Part shown: positions 23,482-34,275 of the stretch, one piece after another
How positions within the stretch are numbered: position 1 is the stretch's first letter
How the letters are laid out: each line of letters opens with the position of its first letter
Assembly (NCBI GenBank): GCA_903900845.1
Contig: CAIUOU010000014.1
Location: 1-64,000 of the forward strand
Length of the DNA stretch: 64,000 bases
Direction: 5' to 3'
Source of the DNA: an uncultured Opitutia bacterium
Lineage (GTDB): Bacteria; Verrucomicrobiota; Verrucomicrobiia; Opitutales; Opitutaceae
Translations under genes and position numbers: made by a program
Notes under the pieces: model-generated
The model's input: the letters and a program-made list of their open reading frames with translations, nothing else
Databases searched by the model: none
What the model was told of the DNA's origin: nothing

Positions 23482-24855
23482 TCAGGAGATGCCTGGAAAT
23501 TTCCACCCGGCCCGGTAGGAGCGGCGGACGTGACGGTTGGCGGCGCTCTCGTTGTCGAAGGCGAGTTTGGCCGCGTTCCACTTCAGCGTGGTCTGCGGGA
23601 AGCGAACGGCCACGCTGCCGAGCAGCACGGACTCAGTGAGCGGGCCGGAGTAGTCGAAGTTTGCACCCGGTTTGCCGCCGTTGATGCAGGCCTCGGCCCA
23701 TTCCGTCCAATGGTGTCCCTGTTCGGCTTCCGGCAGGGTGTAGCCGGCGAATTTTGCGGTCGGGTAAAGCTTGGGGGCGGCGATGTGGGGCACGTGGAGG
23801 ACTCCCCCCGTGCCGATGATGATCGAGCCCTGGCTGTCGCCGTCGCCCTTGCGCTTGCCGGACTTGCCGTCGGCGGGCGTCGTCTCGCGGATGAGCGCCT
23901 GGATGTCGGCGGGCGGACGCTCGTCGCCGTCGTACCAAGTCACGGCGACGGTGTTGCCGGCGGTGTAGGGAGTGCCGGGGAAGACGTACTGGATGCGGGC
24001 GTTGATCGACCAGTTCCACGCGTCGGGCGCGGGACCCTCCGAGCGCACCGAGAGGGGCGAGGTGAGGGCCAGCGCCTTGAACACGGGGTCAAAGATGTGG
24101 CAGCCCATGTCGCCGAAGGTGCCGGTGCCGAAATCGAGACGCTTCCGCCAATTGCCGGGGTGGTAGTGACCTTTGACGAACGGGCGCGGGGTGGCGGGGC
24201 CGAGCCAGAGGTCCCAGTCGAGGGATTCCGGCACGGCGTCGGTGCGGTCGGGCGGCGGACCAGCGTCCCCCCACTTCTTGCTGCTCCACGTGTGGACTTC
24301 CTTCACCTTGCCGATGACGCCGCCCTGCACGATGGCGGCGGCCTGGCGGTAAACCTTGTACGAGTGGATCTGGATGCCCATCTGCGTCACCAGGCGTTTC
24401 TCGCGCGCCAACTCCGTGAGCACACGCGTCTCGTGGAGGTTGTGCGCGAGGGGCTTCTGGCAGTAGCAATGCTTGCCCAGTTGCATCGCGGCGAAAGCCA
24501 TCGGCCCGTGCAGATGGTCGGGGGTGGAGACATTCACCGAGTCGATGTTGCCCTGCTCCTTGTCGAGCAGCTGGCGCCAGTCCTGGTAGACGCGCACTTC
24601 GGGATGGGCCTCGCGAATCTGCTTGGTGCGGGCGAGATCGGCGTCGGCGACGGCGACAAGCTTCACGAAGGGATTGCTGGTGAGGCTCTGGATGTCGGCG
24701 GCGGCCATGCCGCTGGCGCCGAAGCTCGCATGGCGCAGCACGCGGCTCGGGGCGGCGGCGTGCAGGTCGCGCGCGAAAAACGGGGCCGCGAGCGCGGCGG
24801 CGCCGGTGGCGCGGAGAAAGTCACGGCGGGAGGGACGGGGGACGATCGGGGGCAT
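23482..24855 (-). CDS. Tat-exported Gfo/Idh/MocA-family oxidoreductase
   Basis: The product is 457 residues from the ATG at 24855, chosen because it gives a clean twin-arginine signal (PSRRDFLRATGAAALAAPFF). An NAD-binding Rossmann domain with FGASGMAAADI is followed by the Gfo/Idh core, with the catalytic-lysine motif CQKPLAH and GDMGCHIFD. Members act on sugars, using a tightly bound NAD(H) in exported forms, either as oxidoreductases or as glycosidases acting through a transient keto sugar. It is the first gene of an operon with the downstream sulfatase. Confidence 0.85.
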   Translation of the reverse strand: MPPIVPRPSRRDFLRATGAAALAAPFFARDLHAAAPSRVLRHASFGASGMAAADIQSLTSNPFVKLVAVADADLARTKQIREAHPEVRVYQDWRQLLDKEQGNIDSVNVSTPDHLHGPMAFAAMQLGKHCYCQKPLAHNLHETRVLTELAREKRLVTQMGIQIHSYKVYRQAAAIVQGGVIGKVKEVHTWSSKKWGDAGPPPDRTDAVPESLDWDLWLGPATPRPFVKGHYHPGNWRKRLDFGTGTFGDMGCHIFDPVFKALALTSPLSVRSEGPAPDAWNWSINARIQYVFPGTPYTAGNTVAVTWYDGDERPPADIQALIRETTPADGKSGKRKGDGDSQGSIIIGTGGVLHVPHIAAPKLYPTAKFAGYTLPEAEQGHHWTEWAEACINGGKPGANFDYSGPLTESVLLGSVAVRFPQTTLKWNAAKLAFDNESAANRHVRRSYRAGWKFPGIS

Positions 24856-24995
24856 GGAGAGCGTTGTGCGGAGGGTGCGCTGGCTTGGCAATCCCGCGCA
24901 CAGGATCCGCGCCCACCGCGTCAGGACGAAACGTTTGCCATGGCGGCGTCTTTTCCGCCGACTCCGGCACCCGCGTCCCGCGCAACCCCGACTCC

Positions 24996-27335: not shown

Positions 27336-28064
27336 TCAGAGTTCGCGAATCGAAACGTTGCGGAACTGCACGAGACTCGAGGCGGGATTGTATTTCCCGT
27401 CCTTGAAGCCGCCGTGGTGCTGCAGGGCCAGGGCGCCCTTCTCCGGGACGCCGGGTAGCTGCGCGTTGTCGATCACGGTCTTCCCGTTCAGCACCACCGT
27501 GAGACGGTCGCCCTTCATGGTGATTTCAAAGCTGTTCCACTCGCCGACGGGCTTGTCGGCCCGGATCTTCGGGGTCACGCCTGCGCGGACCGCCGCGGGC
27601 ATCTTCTGGTCCATGCGGTAGCCGTAGACCTCGCCGGAGCCGATCGGCCAGCACCAGATGTTGATCTGGGCCTTGCTGGTTCCGCGCACGTAGATGCCGG
27701 AGTCGGCGTTGGGCGTCGGGGTGACGATATCCTTGCCGTCGGTACCCTTCTTGTGGCTGCCGTCGGGGAGCACGGTCGGCACCGGGTAAAGGCCGGTCGT
27801 CTCCTTGATGCGCCAGTCCATGCGCAGCACGAAGTCCTTGTATTCCTTTTCGCTCCAGAGGTTCTTGTCGCCGGCGGCCTCGCTGCGAGCGTCGTAGTCG
27901 ATCACGCCGTTGATCACTTTCCAATGGCCGTTGTCACCGGCGGGCACCTTCCAGCCGGCAAGGTCGCGGCCGTTGAACAGGGAAGTGAAGCCGGCGTCGG
28001 CCGCGGGGGCCGGGGAGGCGAGGGCGACGAGCGCGAATGAGGCGGGGATGAATAGGTTTTTCAT
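27336..28064 (-). CDS. Exported DUF1080 (3-keto-disaccharide hydrolase-type) protein
   Basis: The 242-residue protein has a signal peptide (MKNLFIPASFALVALASPAPAA) and then a single DUF1080 jelly-roll domain beginning LFNGRDLAGWK, with later NADSGIYVRG and GEWNSFEI. The family is concanavalin-like, and some members hydrolyse 3-keto-glycosides. The start at 28064 puts the signal peptide at the N-terminus. It lies 65 bases downstream of a sulfatase, probably in one operon, consistent with removal of sulfate and then processing of the sugar. Confidence 0.87.
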   Translation of the reverse strand: MKNLFIPASFALVALASPAPAADAGFTSLFNGRDLAGWKVPAGDNGHWKVINGVIDYDARSEAAGDKNLWSEKEYKDFVLRMDWRIKETTGLYPVPTVLPDGSHKKGTDGKDIVTPTPNADSGIYVRGTSKAQINIWCWPIGSGEVYGYRMDQKMPAAVRAGVTPKIRADKPVGEWNSFEITMKGDRLTVVLNGKTVIDNAQLPGVPEKGALALQHHGGFKDGKYNPASSLVQFRNVSIREL

Positions 28065-28129
28065 GGGGTGGAGGTGTCGAGCTTGAGGGTGGTAATCCCA
28101 TGCGCAAGGCAATGGTCGAAGGTGGAGCC

Positions 28130-29659
28130 TCAGGGCTCCTCCTCGCCGCCGGCCTTGCGCTTGGCGGCCTTGCCCGGGCGTTTCGCGCCGCTCCGGCCGG
28201 TTGATTCCTGCTCCTGCCCGCGCATGAACTCCTCCCGGGCGGCCGGGTCGGCGCGGGCGCGGAAAACCGGCAGCATGGGGTCTTTGGTGCGCACCATCCA
28301 ATCCTCCAGCCGCGCCGCCATCTCGTCGCGCTTGGCGCGGTGCGTCGGATCGTCGATCAGGTTGCGCAGCGCATCCGGGTCGCGTGCGTAGTCGTAAAGC
28401 TCCTCGGGGACGCGGTGCTCGAAGAGGCGCAGGCGCGCCTCAATCGCGGGACTCTCCTTCGCGAGCGTCACCATGCGTCGGTAGGTCGCGGTGCCCTTGG
28501 TGGCGGTGGCCATCGCGCGGATACCGTTCGACCACGGGTTGAAAAGATAGCCGTGGTCGCGGGTGATGATCGCGCGCATCGGGTGGCGGTGGCCGCCGGA
28601 GTTTTCGTTATACTCCGCCACGATGTGGTCGCGTCCGTCCTGGTTCGCGCCGCGCAGGATCGGCGCGAACGAGCGGCCGTCGAGGCCCGGAGGATGCGGC
28701 CTTCCGACGATGTCCAGTAGCGTGGGAAGCAGGTCGACGGCCGAGATCAGGTGCCGGTCGTCCACGGTTCCGGCACGGGTCACCCCGGGCCAGCGCACCA
28801 TCCAGGGGGTGCGCGTGCTGTGGAAGTAGAGCTGGGTCTTGGCGAACGGCAGCGGCATCCCGTGGTCGGACAGAAAGATGATCGCCGTGCGCTCCTCCTC
28901 GCCCGATTCGCGCAGGGCGCGGAGGATCTCGCCGAGGCTGTCGTCGGCCCGCCGCACGGAGGAGTAATACAGCGCAAGTTCCCGGCGAACGGCGGGATCG
29001 TCGAAGAGGAAGCCCGGCACCGGCACCTCCTCGGGCGTGAACACGCGGCTGGGGCGATTCTCGTCCAGGCGTCCGTTCTCGCCGTAGAACGGCTTGTGGG
29101 GGTCGGAAATGTTGAGGTTGAGGCAGAATGGTTTGCCCGCCGCGCGGGCCTCCTCGATCCCGCGGCGCGTGGAGAGATGATATGAGGCGGGGTTCTTCTG
29201 GTCGAGCTGGGTGCCGTCGGGCTGGCGGTCGAGGACGACGTCCCAGGCGGGGTAGGGCGACCAGGGGGTGGAGTGCGTCACCTTGTGGCGGATACCGGTA
29301 TAGTAGCCGCCCGCCTGCATCAGGTCGGCCATCACCGGGTAGGAATTGCGGACCTGGCGGAAACCTTCGACGCCGTTGTTGTGGGGGTAGCGTCCGGAGA
29401 ACATCACGTTGCGCGAGGGCATGCAGTTGCCGACCTGCACGAAGGCGTGGTTGAAGCGCAGGCTGGCGGCGGCCAGGCGGTCCATGTTTGGAGTGGTGCC
29501 GGGAAGCGGGCAGCCGTAGGCGCCGACCGAGTCGCAGCTCATGTCGTCCGTGGTGATGATCAGGACGTTAAGGCGATCCGCGGCGCGGAGGCCGTTGAGC
29601 AGGGATGCCGTAAGGGTGAGCAGGGCCGCGGCGAACGACCGCAGGGAGGGGGCATGCAT
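28130..29659 (-). CDS. Exported Cys-type sulfatase (S1 family), copy 2
   Basis: The 509-residue protein has a signal peptide followed by NVLIITTDDMSCDS and the formylglycine motif CMPSR, with C79 as the modified residue. A later LSDHGMPLP segment carries metal ligands, and a basic tail (GKAAKRKAGGEEEP) ends the protein. CMPSR-type enzymes resemble heparan N-sulfatase-like S1 members, but the substrate is not assigned. It heads an operon with the DUF1080 gene and is divergent from the aldo/keto reductase operon, with about 145 bases between them. Confidence 0.9.
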   Translation of the reverse strand: MHAPSLRSFAAALLTLTASLLNGLRAADRLNVLIITTDDMSCDSVGAYGCPLPGTTPNMDRLAAASLRFNHAFVQVGNCMPSRNVMFSGRYPHNNGVEGFRQVRNSYPVMADLMQAGGYYTGIRHKVTHSTPWSPYPAWDVVLDRQPDGTQLDQKNPASYHLSTRRGIEEARAAGKPFCLNLNISDPHKPFYGENGRLDENRPSRVFTPEEVPVPGFLFDDPAVRRELALYYSSVRRADDSLGEILRALRESGEEERTAIIFLSDHGMPLPFAKTQLYFHSTRTPWMVRWPGVTRAGTVDDRHLISAVDLLPTLLDIVGRPHPPGLDGRSFAPILRGANQDGRDHIVAEYNENSGGHRHPMRAIITRDHGYLFNPWSNGIRAMATATKGTATYRRMVTLAKESPAIEARLRLFEHRVPEELYDYARDPDALRNLIDDPTHRAKRDEMAARLEDWMVRTKDPMLPVFRARADPAAREEFMRGQEQESTGRSGAKRPGKAAKRKAGGEEEP

Positions 29660-29804: not shown

Positions 29805-30716
29805 ATGGTTCCCCGTTTCCACCTGTCCCCCGACGGCCCCGAGGTATCCTCGCTCGCCTTCGGTCTCTGGCGTCTCGCCGCCGACCCCGAGGGCGCCTCG
29901 CCCGCGCACGTGCGGCGCAAGATCGACGCCTGCCTCGCCGCCGGCATCACCACGTTCGATCACGCCGACATCTACGGCCTCTACACCTGCGAGGGGCTCT
30001 TCGGGCGCGCGCTGGCCGAGGACCCCGGACTGCGCGATCGCATGGAGATCATCACGAAGTGCGGCATCAACGCCGTTTGCGACAACCGGCCCGGCGTGCG
30101 GGTCGCTCACTACGACGCGACCGCCGCCGCCATCGAGCGGTGCGTGGAACGTTCGTTGCGCGAGCTCCGCACCGACCGCATCGACGTGCTGCTGATCCAT
30201 CGTCCCGATTGGCTGACGAGCGCCGAGGAGACCGCGCGCGGCCTCCAACGCGTGATCGCGTCGGGCAAGGTGCGTCACGTCGGGGTCTCCAACTACAACG
30301 TCCACCAGTACGCTTTGCTCGGGCGTTTTCTGGGCCGGGCGCCGGTCACCAACCAGATCGAGATCAGCCTGCTGCACATGGATGCGATCTGGGACGGTAC
30401 GTTGGACCAGTGCCAGGCGGCGGGCGTGCATCCGATGGCCTGGTCTCCGCTGGGCGGCGGCCGGCTCGCGGCCGGCGACCAGCCCGAGGCGGTGCGCACG
30501 CGGGAGGCGCTGCGGCGGATCGGCGCCGAGTACGGCGCGACTCCCGAGCAGATGGCGCACGCGTGGGTCGCCGCGCTGCCGTGCCGGCCCCAGGTCGTGA
30601 TCGGGACCAACAAGCCGGAGCGCATCACGGAGGCTGCGGCCAGCGCGTCCATCCGGCTGGAGCGGCAGCATTGGTACGAGCTGTGGAGCGCGGCGCAGGG
30701 GCGCCGCGTCCCGTGA
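29805..30716 (+). CDS. Aldo/keto reductase, YdhF-like (possible 6-oxo-sugar reductase)
   Basis: The 303-residue NAD(P)H-dependent reductase has the full aldo/keto reductase tetrad D52, Y57, K85 and H132 ([20 protein letters not shown]). The closest pattern I know is E. coli YdhF, including the [13 protein letters not shown] opening and the [10 protein letters not shown] segment. It opens a four-gene operon and is followed after 13 bases by a flavin monooxygenase gene. In the sulfoquinovose monooxygenase pathway, an aldo/keto reductase reduces 6-oxo-glucose after desulfonation, which fits this position. That assignment is inference. The start is the ATG at 29805. Confidence 0.85.
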
Positions 30717-30729
30717 GGTCCCTGGCGCC

Positions 30730-31899
30730 GTGAATTCAGCCGCGCCCACGCCCCCGGCGATCCGCACGCCCGGCCGGCGCGCGGAGGTTGCTTGGTTCGC
30801 CGCGCTCTGCGCCGACGACTACGAGTTTCTCGGCGTGCCCGACGGGGCGCTGCGCAGCAGCTTCGAGCACTGCGGATCGATCGTCCGGCGCGCGGATGAA
30901 CTGGGCTACCAGAACATTCTCCTGCCTTCGGGCTGGATCGCGGGTCAGGACGCGCTCGCGTTCGCCTCGGCGATGGCTGGGCGCAATCGCCAGATCAACC
31001 AGTTGGTCGCGCTGCGCATGGGCGAGGTCTGGCCGCCGATGCTGGCGCGCGCGATCGCCACTTTGGACCACATCGCCAAGGGGCGGCTCACGTTGAACAT
31101 CATCTCGTCCGACCTTCCCGGCCGGAAGGAGTCGAACGAGGATCGCTACGAACGCAGCAGCGAGATCATCCGCATCCTGCAGGCGCTGTGGTCGACGGAG
31201 GGGCCCCTGGAGTGGCGCGGCCGCTTCTACCAATTCGATCTTCCCAACTGCGAGCCGGCCCAAACTTTCCAGCAGAACGGCGGCCCGCTGCTCTACTTCG
31301 GCGGCATCTCGCCCGCGGCGCAGGATCTCTGCGCGCGGCACTGCGATGTCTTCCTGATGTGGCCGGAGACCGAGGCGAGCCTCTCCGCCACCATGCACCA
31401 GGTGGCCGGCTTGGCGGCGCGGCATGGGCGCACGATCGACTTCGGTCTGCGCATCCACGTCATCGTGCGCGAGTCGGAGGCGGACGCGCGCGCCGCCGCG
31501 GACCGTCTCATTTCCCGGCTCGACCGGGAGAAAGGCGCGGCGATCCGCGCTCGCTCGATGGACGCGAAAAGCGCCGGCGTCCTGCGTCAGGACGCGCTCC
31601 GCGAGATGGCTGGCGCGGATCTCTACATCGAGCCGCACATCTGGTCAGGCATCGGGCTTGCCCGCAGCGGCTGCGCTAGCGCGATCGTGGGTGATCCCGA
31701 CCAGGTTGTCGCGAAACTGAACCGTTACCTCGACATGGGGTTTCGCTCCTTCGTGCTCAGCGGTTACCCCCATGCGGAGGAGTGCGAACTCTTCGCCCGT
31801 CACGTCCTGCCGCGCTTGCCGACGTGCCGGCTCAACGAACTGCAGGGCCGGCTGGTGCCGGATCCGGTCACCCCGCTGACGTCCGCGCCCCGCCGCTGA
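30730..31899 (+). CDS. LLM-class flavin-dependent monooxygenase, alkanesulfonate/sulfoquinovose type
   Basis: The 389-residue TIM-barrel protein belongs to the SsuD-like group of reduced-flavin monooxygenases, which cleave carbon-sulfur bonds and release sulfite. [49 protein letters not shown] and [10 protein letters not shown] follow in order. From memory, the FLGVPD and ILLPSG pattern resembles the sulfoquinovose monooxygenase SmoC more than classical SsuD. It starts with GTG and is followed by a Gfo/Idh/MocA gene after 10 bases. No flavin reductase, which it would need, is encoded nearby. Confidence 0.82.
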
Positions 31900-31909
31900 G
31901 TCCATTCCC

Positions 31910-32965
31910 ATGAGCAAGCCACCCGTCAGGTTCGGTCTCGTCGGTTTCGGCGCCTGGGGCCGGTTCCACGCCCAGTCGATCGCCGGTAATCCCGGTGCCC
32001 GCCTCGCCGCGATCACGGTCCCTTCCGAGGCCTCGCGCGCGGAGGCGGTGCGTCTTCACCCGGGCGCGGAGGTTTTCACCGACCACCGGTCGATGCTCGC
32101 GGCGGGCGGAATCGACATCGTCGACGTGGTCACGCCGAGTCACACCCATCTGGCCGTCGCGACCGACGCTCTGGCCGCCGGCTGCGATGTGCTGCTGGAG
32201 AAGCCGATGGCGCTGACCATTCCCGACTGCCAGGCGATCGTGCGGACCGCCCGCCGCCACGGGCGCCGGCTGGCGGTCGGCCACGAGCTCCGGCTTTCCT
32301 CTCAGTGGGGTGAAATCCGCCGGATCATCGATCGTGGTGTGATCGGCGACCCGCAGTACGTGCTCGTCGAGTTGTCCCGCAAACCCTACCGCCTCGGCGC
32401 CTCCGGCTGGCGGTACGATCCGGCGCGGGTCGGCAGCTGGGTTTTGGAGGAGCCCATCCACTTCTTCGATCTCGCGCGCTGGTATCTGGAGGGCGCGGGA
32501 CGTCCGGTGGAGCTGCATGCCTTCGGCAACTCCCGGGATGCCTCGCGACCGGGCCTCTACGACAACTTCAGCGCGGTCTTCCGCTACGCGAATGGATCGT
32601 ACGCCGTCGTCTCCCAGACACTCGCCGCGTTCGAGCATCATCAAACGGTGAAGGTTTCCGGCACGCGGGGCGCGCTCTGGGCGGGCTGGAGCGGCGCGCT
32701 CGACCGCACGCTGGAGCCGACCTTTTTCCTGAAGGTCTTCGACGGGCAGAACCTCGAGAACGTCTCGCTCGCGCGCCATAGCGGCGAGGTTTTCGAGTTG
32801 CGCGAGCAGATTGACCGTTGCGTGCGGATGGTGCGGGGCGAGGCCCCGCCTGCGGCGACCGGCGAGGACGGCGTTTGGTCCGCGGGGCTGTGCCTCCTCG
32901 CGGAGGAGTCCATCCGGCAGGGACGCCCGCTGCCGGTGCCGGATCTCGCGGAGGGCCTTGCATGA
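31910..32965 (+). CDS. Gfo/Idh/MocA-family protein (possible NAD-dependent sulfoquinovosidase)
   Basis: The 351-residue cytoplasmic protein has an N-terminal Rossmann fold (LVGFGAWGRFHA), the catalytic-lysine motif EKP at residues 97-99 and a catalytic-region EEPIHFFDLARWY with H184 and D187. Unlike the copy at 23482-24855 it lacks an export signal. The family includes sugar dehydrogenases and NAD-dependent glycosidases, among them those described for sulfoquinovosides (GH188). Its place between a sulfonate-type monooxygenase and a transporter supports a glycosidase or dehydrogenase on the same sugar. Its stop overlaps the next start by four bases (ATGA). Confidence 0.83.
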   Translation: MSKPPVRFGLVGFGAWGRFHAQSIAGNPGARLAAITVPSEASRAEAVRLHPGAEVFTDHRSMLAAGGIDIVDVVTPSHTHLAVATDALAAGCDVLLEKPMALTIPDCQAIVRTARRHGRRLAVGHELRLSSQWGEIRRIIDRGVIGDPQYVLVELSRKPYRLGASGWRYDPARVGSWVLEEPIHFFDLARWYLEGAGRPVELHAFGNSRDASRPGLYDNFSAVFRYANGSYAVVSQTLAAFEHHQTVKVSGTRGALWAGWSGALDRTLEPTFFLKVFDGQNLENVSLARHSGEVFELREQIDRCVRMVRGEAPPAATGEDGVWSAGLCLLAEESIRQGRPLPVPDLAEGLA

Positions 32966-34275
32966 GTTCGCCTTCCGCCGCCCCGTCCCGCTGGCACGAG
33001 GGTGTCACGCGCTACCAGTGGTTGGTTCTTTTCATCGCCTGCCTGGGCTGGATCTTCGACGCGTTCGAGGGCCAGTTGTACAACATCACGCGCGGCGAGA
33101 TGCTGCCGGACCTGCTGCGGGCGAACGATCCCGCGATCACGCCGGCCGAGCTCACCGCGGCCACCGCCTCGTGGGGTGAGAGGTTCCTCGGTATTTTCCT
33201 GATCGGCGGCACCTTGGGCGGCTGGTTGTTCAGCAGCCTCGCCGATCGCTGGGGACGCGTCCCGGTGATGTCCATCACGATCCTGTTCTACAGTGTTTTC
33301 TCGGGCCTGACGGCCTTCGCGACGGAACTCTGGCATGTCGGGGCGCTCCGGTTTCTGGTGGCCATGGGGGTGGGAGGGGAGTGGGCGGTCGGTGCGGCGT
33401 TGGTCGCGGAGGTCTTTCCCGCCCATGCTCGCGAGAGGGCCGGCGTCATCTTCCACGCTTCAAGCGTGGCGGGTCTCTGGCTCGCGGCGGGAACCGGCCT
33501 CTGGGTCGGGGCGGAGTGGCGTCTGGCCTACCTGGTCGGGGTCATTCCCGCCCTGCTGGTCTTGTGGGTGCGGATGAGCGTGAAGGAGCCGGAGTCCTGG
33601 AAGCGGGCTAAGGAGACGCGCGGCGAGCAACTCGGGAGCTTTCGCGAACTGCTGGGCGATCCGCGCTGGCGGGGACGGGCGCTCGGCGGCGCCCTGTTGG
33701 CGATGGTGGGTCTCGCGACCTTCTGGGGCGTGGTAGTCGCGGGACAGAATATCGCCGACGATCTGCTCCGGCGGCTGGGTGTGCCGGCCGGCGAGGCGGC
33801 GTCCCGCGCCAAGGTCGCCTTCGGCTTCATCCAGACCGCCGGCGCGGGCCTCGGTATGTTGATGTTCGGTCCGCTCAGCGTGCGGTGGGGCCGGAGGCGA
33901 ACCTTTGCGGTGATGCACGTCGCGGCGTGCGTGATGACCCTCGTGATCTGCTGGGTCCCGGCGCATTTCGACAGTTATGCGCTGTTGCTCGTGCTGCTGC
34001 CGGTCTTCGGGTTTTTCGCGCAGGGGATCCACGCCGGCTACGCGGTGTATTTCCCGGAGTTGTTCCCGACCCATCTGCGTGCCACCGGGGCCGGATTCTG
34101 CTTCAACACCGGTCGGATGCTCGCGGCGCCGGTGCTGATCTGGCTCTCCGCGTGGATGAAGTCGACGTTCGCGCTGCCGGTGGCGGTTTCGGTGCTCGGC
34201 CTTTTCTTCCTGCTCGGCTTGGTGGTGCTTCGTTTCCTGCCCGAGACCAAGGACCAGCGGCTGCCGGAGGATTAG
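32962..34275 (+). CDS. MFS transporter, sugar/acid type
   Basis: The 437-residue protein has about 12 transmembrane segments. It has the MFS loop motif LADRWGRVPVM after helix 2 and the repeated GRRRTFAV motif after helix 8. The extracellular loop between helices 1 and 2 is long, as in sugar-acid and aromatic-acid carriers. The start at 32962 overlaps the preceding stop (ATGA), indicating translational coupling, and rules out a longer upstream start. It should import the substrate of the operon, possibly sulfoquinovose or its glyceryl glycoside. Confidence 0.88.
   Translation: MSSPSAAPSRWHEGVTRYQWLVLFIACLGWIFDAFEGQLYNITRGEMLPDLLRANDPAITPAELTAATASWGERFLGIFLIGGTLGGWLFSSLADRWGRVPVMSITILFYSVFSGLTAFATELWHVGALRFLVAMGVGGEWAVGAALVAEVFPAHARERAGVIFHASSVAGLWLAAGTGLWVGAEWRLAYLVGVIPALLVLWVRMSVKEPESWKRAKETRGEQLGSFRELLGDPRWRGRALGGALLAMVGLATFWGVVVAGQNIADDLLRRLGVPAGEAASRAKVAFGFIQTAGAGLGMLMFGPLSVRWGRRRTFAVMHVAACVMTLVICWVPAHFDSYALLLVLLPVFGFFAQGIHAGYAVYFPELFPTHLRATGAGFCFNTGRMLAAPVLIWLSAWMKSTFALPVAVSVLGLFFLLGLVVLRFLPETKDQRLPED

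Follow-up and report, generated by a model that had tools for sequence, protein, structure and literature searches.

A candidate sulfoquinovose desulfonation operon in an uncultured bacterium of the Verrucomicrobiota

How might a verrucomicrobial bacterium take in sulfoquinovose (SQ), free it from its glycosides and remove its sulfonate group? The question is raised by four adjoining genes in a 64,000-nucleotide stretch of DNA (the window; positions 1 to 64,000 of CAIUOU010000014.1, assembly GCA_903900845.1) from an uncultured Opitutia bacterium of the Opitutaceae, taken from contig 14 of a 4.4 Mb genome in 205 contigs. The genes encode an aldo/keto reductase (AKR), a monooxygenase of the SsuD/SmoC family (SMO), a Gfo/Idh/MocA oxidoreductase (GFO) and a carrier of the major facilitator superfamily (MFS). 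SQ production is estimated at about 10 billion tons per year (PMC10755693). The operon is read here, with a probability of roughly 0.7, as a sulfo-SMO (oxidative desulfonation) pathway for SQ in which GFO and MFS carry out the gateway steps.

The operon and its relation to known pathways

The layout given in the first-pass annotation, with gaps of 13 bases (AKR-SMO) and 10 bases (SMO-GFO) and a 4-base ATGA overlap of GFO and MFS at 32962-32965, was confirmed together with the four families by the open reading frames, the letters themselves and Pfam/NCBIfam models (Table 1). GFO appears to be cytoplasmic, a signal peptide being absent by eye. A scan of the operon for promoters and terminators gave nothing above chance.

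In the proposed scheme the MFS carrier would import SQ or an SQ glycoside, for example sulfoquinovosyl glycerol, and GFO would yield free SQ by redox chemistry at C3 with bound NAD(H). Two forms are conceivable: GFO might be a self-sufficient NAD-dependent sulfoquinovosidase that does not belong to GH188, or it might reduce 3-keto-SQ that a secreted glycoside 3-dehydrogenase and a PF06439 hydrolase generate outside the cytoplasm. SMO, supplied with reduced flavin mononucleotide (FMNH2) by an unlinked flavin reductase, would release sulfite and leave 6-oxo-glucose, which AKR would convert to glucose, and the sulfite would be oxidised or exported by unlinked enzymes. Every reaction, substrate and direction of transport in this scheme is predicted from gene content.

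Table 1. Features of the window around the candidate operon.
Feature	Coordinates	Strand	Evidence and candidate role
Aldo/keto reductase (AKR)	29805..30716	+	ATG, 303 aa; Pfam PF00248 Aldo_ket_red 1.4e-52; candidate 6-oxo-glucose (6-dehydroglucose) reductase, SmoB role
SsuD/SmoC-family FMNH2-dependent monooxygenase (SMO)	30730..31899	+	GTG, 389 aa; Bac_luciferase 2.7e-48; candidate sulfoquinovose monooxygenase
Gfo/Idh/MocA oxidoreductase (GFO)	31910..32965	+	ATG, 351 aa; GFO_IDH_MocA 3.5e-27 and C-terminal domains (PF01408/PF22725); candidate gateway enzyme at C3
MFS carrier (MFS)	32962..34275	+	ATG, 437 aa; PF07690 MFS_1 4e-32; candidate importer of an anionic sugar or glycoside
Tat-signal Gfo/Idh protein, BT_2158 glycoside 3-dehydrogenase type	23482..24891	-	NCBIfam BT_2158_fam 2.9e-84, 283 bits (cut-off 750); TAT_signal_seq 4.4e-4
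PF06439 3-keto-disaccharide hydrolase domain protein	27336..28301	-	PF06439 2.6e-35; listed TTG start probably too early
Sulfatase	28130..29659	-	PF00884

The sulfo-SMO pathway (also sulfo-ASMO; SmoC/SquD, SmoB/SquF, SmoA) is known from Agrobacterium, Novosphingobium and the Roseobacter clade. The window operon has in common with it a SmoC-type monooxygenase and an AKR that are encoded together, along with importer and Gfo/Idh genes. The clusters of Ruegeria (L097), Roseivivax (L095) and Rhizobium (L094) likewise have an importer and a Gfo/Idh gene, but they carry TRAP genes where the window operon has MFS. The window differs further in its phylum, in that no linked flavin reductase was found in it, and in its Gfo/Idh protein, which is not of GH188. 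A verrucomicrobial version with an MFS carrier in place of an ABC importer had been proposed; the carrier is present, but the feature is not unique, as MFS genes occur in the sphingomonad SMO clusters L139 and L148 too, and in the stretches of them that were viewed no flavin reductase was seen. The window MFS is unlike theirs, useful similarity not being found, and its nearest NCBIfam models, aromatic-acid/H+ and sialate/H+ symporters, scored below cut-off.

According to a 2026 review the sulfo-SMO route is mainly alpha- and betaproteobacterial (PMC12890257). A 2026 aquatic survey, which takes SmoB and SmoC within 10 open reading frames as its cluster criterion and does not require a flavin reductase, adds Actinomycetota and Spirochaetota to the hosts (PMC13372026). 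The string "Verrucomicrobi-" is not in the main text of these two papers or of PMC10755693, and the accessible parts of PMC12555021 and PMC10591310 mention SQ only as part of an enzyme name or in another context. No paper on a verrucomicrobial sulfo-SMO pathway was found in the open-licence PMC literature, a scope that leaves novelty unproven. The sulfo-SMO pathway itself is already known; a module that ties a single Gfo/Idh clade and a single carrier to three SQ routes has, to our knowledge, not been described.

The monooxygenase, its partners and their conserved linkage

By its sequence the window SMO is a member of the SmoC side of the SsuD/SmoC family. Its best matches among PDB sequences were 7olf (434 bits) and 7oh2 (431 bits), which are taken to be SmoC structures, against 201 bits for SsuD. 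Identity is 52-53% to the Ruegeria and Novosphingobium proteins and 36% to SsuD, and the best NCBIfam model, alkanesulfonate monooxygenase, was matched at 258 bits, under its cut-off of 518. A 40-protein tree set the SmoC side, consisting of 24 verrucomicrobial (the window included, out of 86), 8 alphaproteobacterial and 3 Bacteroidota proteins, apart from 5 SsuD-like proteins at 100/100 by a long branch. Two unrelated luciferase-like monooxygenase rows (end branches of 10) and L088 (no clean frame) were left out. The root crosses a branch of length 5.6 and is unsafe, and therefore no claim is made that SmoC arose in the Verrucomicrobiota.

Residue comparisons gave the same placement. Of the 38 columns that are invariant in the 8 alphaproteobacterial SMOs and absent from the SsuD-like proteins, 31 are kept in the window SMO and 23, 25 and 26 in the three Bacteroidota relatives. 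Besides the family itself, the window SMO shares with SsuD the residues presumed to form its sulfonate site: the equivalents of R226, H228, R297, Y331 and H333 are all present, as R241, H243, R312, Y346 and H348. The first-pass identification of an SsuD-like enzyme as a candidate for the SmoC role is thus supported, with SmoC as its nearer relative.

Other SmoC-like monooxygenases were met on plasmids of Spirosoma (L092 8001-9167, L098 7971-9101) and Emticicia (L093 6489-7664). The two Spirosoma proteins (53-56% identical) adjoin amino-acid permease and SusCD genes, and L092 also lies near amidohydrolase, cytochrome c and sulfite dehydrogenase genes. The Emticicia protein (53%) adjoins a sodium/solute symporter and a GH95 gene. 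In L092 the equivalents of R297, Y331 and H333 are F, F and L; with three of the five site residues lost, its substrate may not be SQ.

The AKR assignment carries less information. The best PDB matches of the window AKR are 7bby/7bbz at 276 bits, presumably the SmoB entries, followed by a YdhF-type protein at 234 bits. In the AKR tree the operon-linked AKRs form a clade whose neighbours are YdhF and verrucomicrobial AKRs not linked to an SMO, and the pathway SmoBs split into two separate groups; the tree took in 18 of the 19 unlinked AKRs fetched (L130, without a match in the frame translated, left out) out of 24 non-operon places, with one genome present twice (G234 and G403 are the same place). 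Judged from these sequences, membership of the family is not diagnostic of the SmoB role. A match at 1e-25 was found in 29 of 40 SMO genomes (one genome counted twice), with 6 places at 71-100% identity, which are the operon genes, and 24 at 42-54% elsewhere. An AKR gene adjoins SMO in six of the eight alphaproteobacterial reference loci, L140 and L141 being the exceptions. Within 4 kb of SMO a window-type AKR occurs in 6 of the 80 loci described below and was not seen in the other 74 (contig ends included). The AKR family was thus overstated as support for a SmoB. All seven AKR-bearing loci, the window among them, also have GFO. An AKR of a different subfamily lies near SMO in four loci without a SmoB-like AKR (L077 11569-12570, L085 11606-12610, L078 and L083) and may supply the 6-oxo-glucose reductase there.

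As the first-pass annotation had stated, neither a flavin reductase nor a sulfite exporter linked to the operon was found in the window. The organism's genome has two TauE matches and one Flavin_Reduct match, all on other contigs, and gave no FMN_red match at 0.001. The reading frame extracted for the Flavin_Reduct match (L142), probably a wrong one, had no match among NCBIfam models. A SorA/SoxC-like protein lies on its contig 99 (236 bits; SorA cut-off 600).

Gene neighbourhoods were compared in the best 80 of 149 SMO relatives (65-80% identity) from a scan of a genome collection. By record title these are Verrucomicrobiota, save six Planctomycetota/Planctomycetaceae and one "bacterium"; titles include Opitutaceae, Verrucomicrobiaceae, Prosthecobacter, Brevifollis, Chthoniobacter and Akkermansiaceae, and isolate names suggest lakes, ponds, groundwater and sludge. 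Within 4 kb of SMO there is a GFO in 49 loci, an MFS in 42, a ROK gene in 32, an FMN reductase in 10 and an AKR in 6; among the 49 loci flanked on both sides by 3 kb or more of sequence the counts are 32, 29, 23, 7 and 3. The linkage of GFO and MFS to SMO is more than chance. The ROK proteins are more varied, at 26-56% identity among seven compared. Locus L019 has in a row FMN reductase, AKR, SMO, GFO, MFS, PF06439 hydrolase and BT_2158-type glycoside 3-dehydrogenase. "Minimal", as the operon had been called, is true of the window locus but not of its relatives, which add a linked FMN reductase (10/80), ROK (32/80) or, in G217, SorA.

Among 387 Verrucomicrobiota genomes SMO (65-100% identity, E <=1e-30) was found in six and GFO (52-100%, E <=1e-70; up to five candidates per genome scored) in eight, namely all six SMO genomes together with G375 and G012. 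Counted by genus, SMO occurs in 4 and GFO in 6 of 197, and all 4 are shared (hypergeometric p about 2.5e-7, a value that ignores kinship). GFO adjoins SMO in five of the six SMO genomes; in G234 it is found on a different contig, where its surroundings showed no recognisable SQ gene.

The candidate gateway proteins and the proposed release of sulfoquinovose

The two genomes with GFO beyond the SMO set bear directly on its role. G375, of the same family as the window organism, has no SMO or SsuD-like match at 1e-30. Its GFO and MFS, 67% and 73% identical to those of the window, adjoin a ROK gene. The cluster also holds a TTE1925-type mutarotase (271 bits, below the cut-off of 550); a 471-aa isomerase whose best model is the SQ isomerase SftI (1.4e-38); a 92-aa SAF protein and a GD_AH protein, presumably SuyA- and SuyB-like, the latter below cut-off with galactarate dehydratase as best model; an Ldh_2 protein for which L-sulfolactate dehydrogenase is the top-scoring model (below cut-off; a reading frame of 276 aa against 339 model positions); a 2-hydroxyacid dehydrogenase; an aldehyde dehydrogenase; and a fructose-6-phosphate aldolase-type transaldolase that scores above cut-off. 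This gene set reads as a sulfo-transaldolase (sulfo-TAL) pathway followed by cleavage of sulfolactate.

In G012, kin to the window organism at phylum level only, GFO (52% identical) and MFS (59-60%) flank ROK, Fe-ADH, split transketolase N and C, RpiB and TauE genes, and the cluster includes a sugar-isomerase-like protein that appears by eye to be secreted. An SQ isomerase was not recognised in the stretch fetched around it. Fe-ADH and transketolase are below NCBIfam cut-offs, and the one model whose cut-off RpiB reaches is that of a subfamily, TIGR00689. Proteins of the Fe-ADH, split transketolase, RpiB and TauE kinds are named SqwF, SqwGH, SqwI and SqwE in the sulfo-transketolase (sulfo-TK) route (PMC12890257), and the G012 cluster looks sulfo-TK-like. 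The names of single genes in both clusters are weak, and the readings therefore rest on the gene sets. No sulfo-TAL or sulfo-TK cluster was seen around the window operon, where the pathway would be the monooxygenase one. A further arrangement is found in G217, with ROK, MFS, a 119-aa protein, SorA, GFO and then a divergent SMO; the SorA sulfite dehydrogenase between GFO and MFS scores 658.5 bits, above the cut-off of 600, and its presence is in keeping with a release of sulfite.

Since GFO, MFS and ROK persist while the downstream pathway varies, GFO and MFS probably work before the point of branching. What the three routes can have in common is uptake and the supply of free SQ, and these are the steps to which the pair most likely belongs. 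The recurrence of the pair beside gene sets for two other SQ pathways suggests an unrecognised gateway step. It also gives SQ, which the first-pass annotation had named as an inferred substrate, better support, because the GFO and MFS orthologues lie in sulfo-TAL-like and sulfo-TK-like clusters. According to PMC10755693, the GH188 enzyme SqgA holds the gateway position in several SQ pathways, a role that a similar gene-neighbourhood argument supports.

The earlier suggestion that GFO is a GH188 enzyme is not supported. The ligand contacts of the GH188 protein ArSqgA are K107, Y136, R166, the L170 backbone, K172, E189, H193 and H321 (PMC10755693). These positions were compared in 57 operon-type GFO rows, 56 of them distinct (G217 is the same as L007). 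The equivalents of K107, R166, E189 and H193 are invariant in all 57, and in the window (K98, R157, E180 and H184) they are as in all six GH188 proteins. In every row Y136 is replaced by L, F or M, L170 by R and K172 by G, and the sulfonate clamp of R166, L170 and K172 reads R, R, G; the H321 position holds His in 28 rows, the window included. As the L170 contact is made by a backbone amide, the change at L170 alone would not decide. In a tree of 32 Gfo/Idh proteins 15 operon GFOs came together at 100/99, and six GH188 relatives made up a clade of their own at 100/100. A joint clade of the two costs 12.5 units of log-likelihood, with a borderline p of 0.044 in the approximately unbiased test and long branches. 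Membership of GH188 was rejected on the separate clade together with the change of three of the eight ligand positions in all rows.

A place among inositol or glucose dehydrogenases, the other outcome named in advance, was approached weakly: GFO groups with five inositol-like proteins at 88/76, and this branch was not starred. The window GFO scored 123 bits against the IolG (inositol 2-dehydrogenase) equivalog, under the cut-off of 355, and 48 bits against the BT_2159-like model, under the cut-off of 650. The best of five AlphaFold models has a mean predicted local distance difference test (pLDDT) score of 86.8 (others 84.3 to 66.5), with pLDDT of 57-69 at residues 161-180, a stretch that contains some of the putative clamp. 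In a VIA-align comparison GH188 chains were in the top tie (Z 35.3-35.8) and 5uhw, 3db2 and 4gqa were equal; as other Gfo/Idh structures match the model equally, the fold does not decide for GH188.

Other SQ-releasing enzymes were sought in 40 SMO genomes (G375 and G012 lie outside this search). No GH188 match above 36% identity and no match at 1e-40 to a GH31 sulfoquinovosidase was found in them. The GH31 query was a Novosphingobium gene (L096), annotated as alpha-glucosidase, in a SmoC cluster, its sulfoquinovosidase role being taken from context; at 1e-5 in nine genomes it gave one weak partial match, and its own record was recovered as a positive control.

Taken together, these sequences make a non-GH188, NAD-dependent gateway enzyme the best reading of GFO, which would be a sulfoquinovosidase of a new type or else, within a split 3-keto route, an oxidoreductase acting at C3. 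As a stand-alone sulfoquinovosidase GFO would, like GH188, run through oxidation, elimination, hydration and reduction at a single site, but with a different sulfonate clamp formed by R157 and R161. This form is plausible but falls somewhat short of an even chance. It would suit an enzyme that stands upstream of three pathways, that occurs in SMO genomes without detectable GH31 or GH188 sulfoquinovosidases, that keeps four ligand residues and R161 (the L170 position) without exception, and that in several genomes (for example G395, G190, G401 and G404) is the only protein to reach 1e-20 with the GH188 query; in G409, G415, G416 and G417, on the other hand, another Gfo/Idh protein is the best match. 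The clade is separate from GH188, Lys172 is absent, and the clamp loop is one of the regions where the model has lower confidence. The loss of Tyr136 and the variable His321 position favour the split route. There a secreted BT_2158-type dehydrogenase and a PF06439 hydrolase would cleave the SQ glycoside outside, MFS would import 3-keto-SQ and GFO would reduce it to SQ. There are two precedents: the levoglucosan Lgd pathway is a split version of 3-keto chemistry (PMC7676230), and periplasmic use of 3-keto-lactose involves a PF06439 protein (PMC9007349). Such routes (LgdA-C; BT2157/BT2158) have Gfo/Idh C3 dehydrogenases in common with the window, and in the BT2157 case a PF06439 hydrolase; both families are encoded upstream of the operon on the other strand, where they may be accessories of it, and their tie to SQ is conjectural. 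GFO is not BT_2159-like above cut-off. GFO, MFS, PF06439 and BT_2158-type genes lie in a row in L019 and G375, whose BT_2158-type proteins are 62% identical, and a secreted-type Gfo, called by similarity, is within 4 kb of SMO in 26 of 89 loci (of which one is the window itself and four are SsuD-like). Proteins of either family are, in general, common among these bacteria. Close linked PF06439 genes (at least 343 bits) were found with the L019 query in 4 loci, L019 included, and their rarity favours the one-enzyme sulfoquinovosidase; the G375 and window queries gave no linked match among the SMO loci, in a diverse family of which some members may be missed. The window PF06439 protein is 23% identical to that of L019 and has no BLAST match to that of G375. 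The split route is a possibility on the doubtful side.

Two further explanations depart from the gateway reading. That SMO acts on a different sulfonate, such as a sulfosugar other than SQ, within a SmoC-like family broader than SQ is unlikely: the Spirosoma and Emticicia genes do sit in different contexts (permeases and amidohydrolase; symporter and GH95), and positions 310 and 69 of the window SMO differ from all eight alphaproteobacterial proteins, but the window protein keeps the sulfonate-site residues that Spirosoma L092 has lost, an SQ-isomerase-like gene stands beside the G375 orthologues, and the AKR of the window operon and of 6 of the 80 loci is as in known clusters. Less likely still is that GFO is itself the 6-oxo-glucose reductase, a substitute for SmoB. 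The many SMO loci in which GFO is linked (49) and the many in which AKR is not (74 of 80) speak for it. It was rejected as the main reading because GFO stands in G375 and G012 beside apparent pathways that make no 6-oxo-glucose; GFO is also present in every AKR-bearing locus, and 21 of the 30 AKR places in the 40 genomes are unlinked AKRs 49-54% identical to that of the window.

Several observations weigh against an SQ-specific sulfo-SMO operon with GFO as gateway enzyme. No assayed member of this SMO or GFO clade is known to us. At SMO position 310, 20 of the 24 verrucomicrobial rows, the window's among them, have Leu, and all eight alphaproteobacterial ones have Arg (as do verrucomicrobial L007, L089, L090 and L091); at position 69, 23 of the 24 have Trp instead of Tyr. 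These genomes encode many Gfo/Idh proteins, and many dehydrogenases match the fold equally well. The organism's own genome has no FMN_red match, and its Flavin_Reduct match is single and unlinked. Most single names in the G375 and G012 clusters come from below-cut-off models, the SftI match being far under (132.8 against 700 bits), and there is one sulfo-TAL-like and one sulfo-TK-like example, each from one genome. Neither GFO nor MFS is within 4 kb in 10 of the 49 SMO loci with 3 kb on both sides, though some of these have GFO farther off or on another contig. In L079-L084 (Akkermansiaceae and other Verrucomicrobiales) SMO, MFS, ROK and FMN reductase are present and a linked GFO was not seen, so GFO is not indispensable.

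It is an even call whether the GFO clade, MFS and ROK constitute a portable verrucomicrobial SQ gateway module serving at least three pathways (SMO, transaldolase and transketolase), with GFO as the founder of a third class of SQ-releasing enzyme outside GH31 and GH188 that would act by oxidation and reduction at C3 and hold the sulfonate in a double-arginine clamp (R157/R161). If GFO is a gateway enzyme, surveys that rely on GH31 or GH188 as markers would overlook these organisms, and an entry module of this portable kind would explain how one phylum comes to mix oxygen-dependent and oxygen-independent downstream pathways. The records of the named strains Brevifollis gellanilyticus (L030) and Chthoniobacter flavus (L089) contain the cluster and make it directly testable.

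Neighbouring genes

The sulfatase gene of the window is divergent from the operon. Sulfatases scoring 74-136 bits against it occur in 11 SMO loci, with no hint of a common role. A PF13454 FAD-NAD(P)-binding protein is encoded near eight SMO loci, often beside the ROK gene (L030 6518-7918 and L089 3390-4796, both on the minus strand). A protein of about 290 aa (cluster C12), secreted by eye and without a Pfam match, lies beside MFS or GFO in seven loci, for example at L065 2227-3099.

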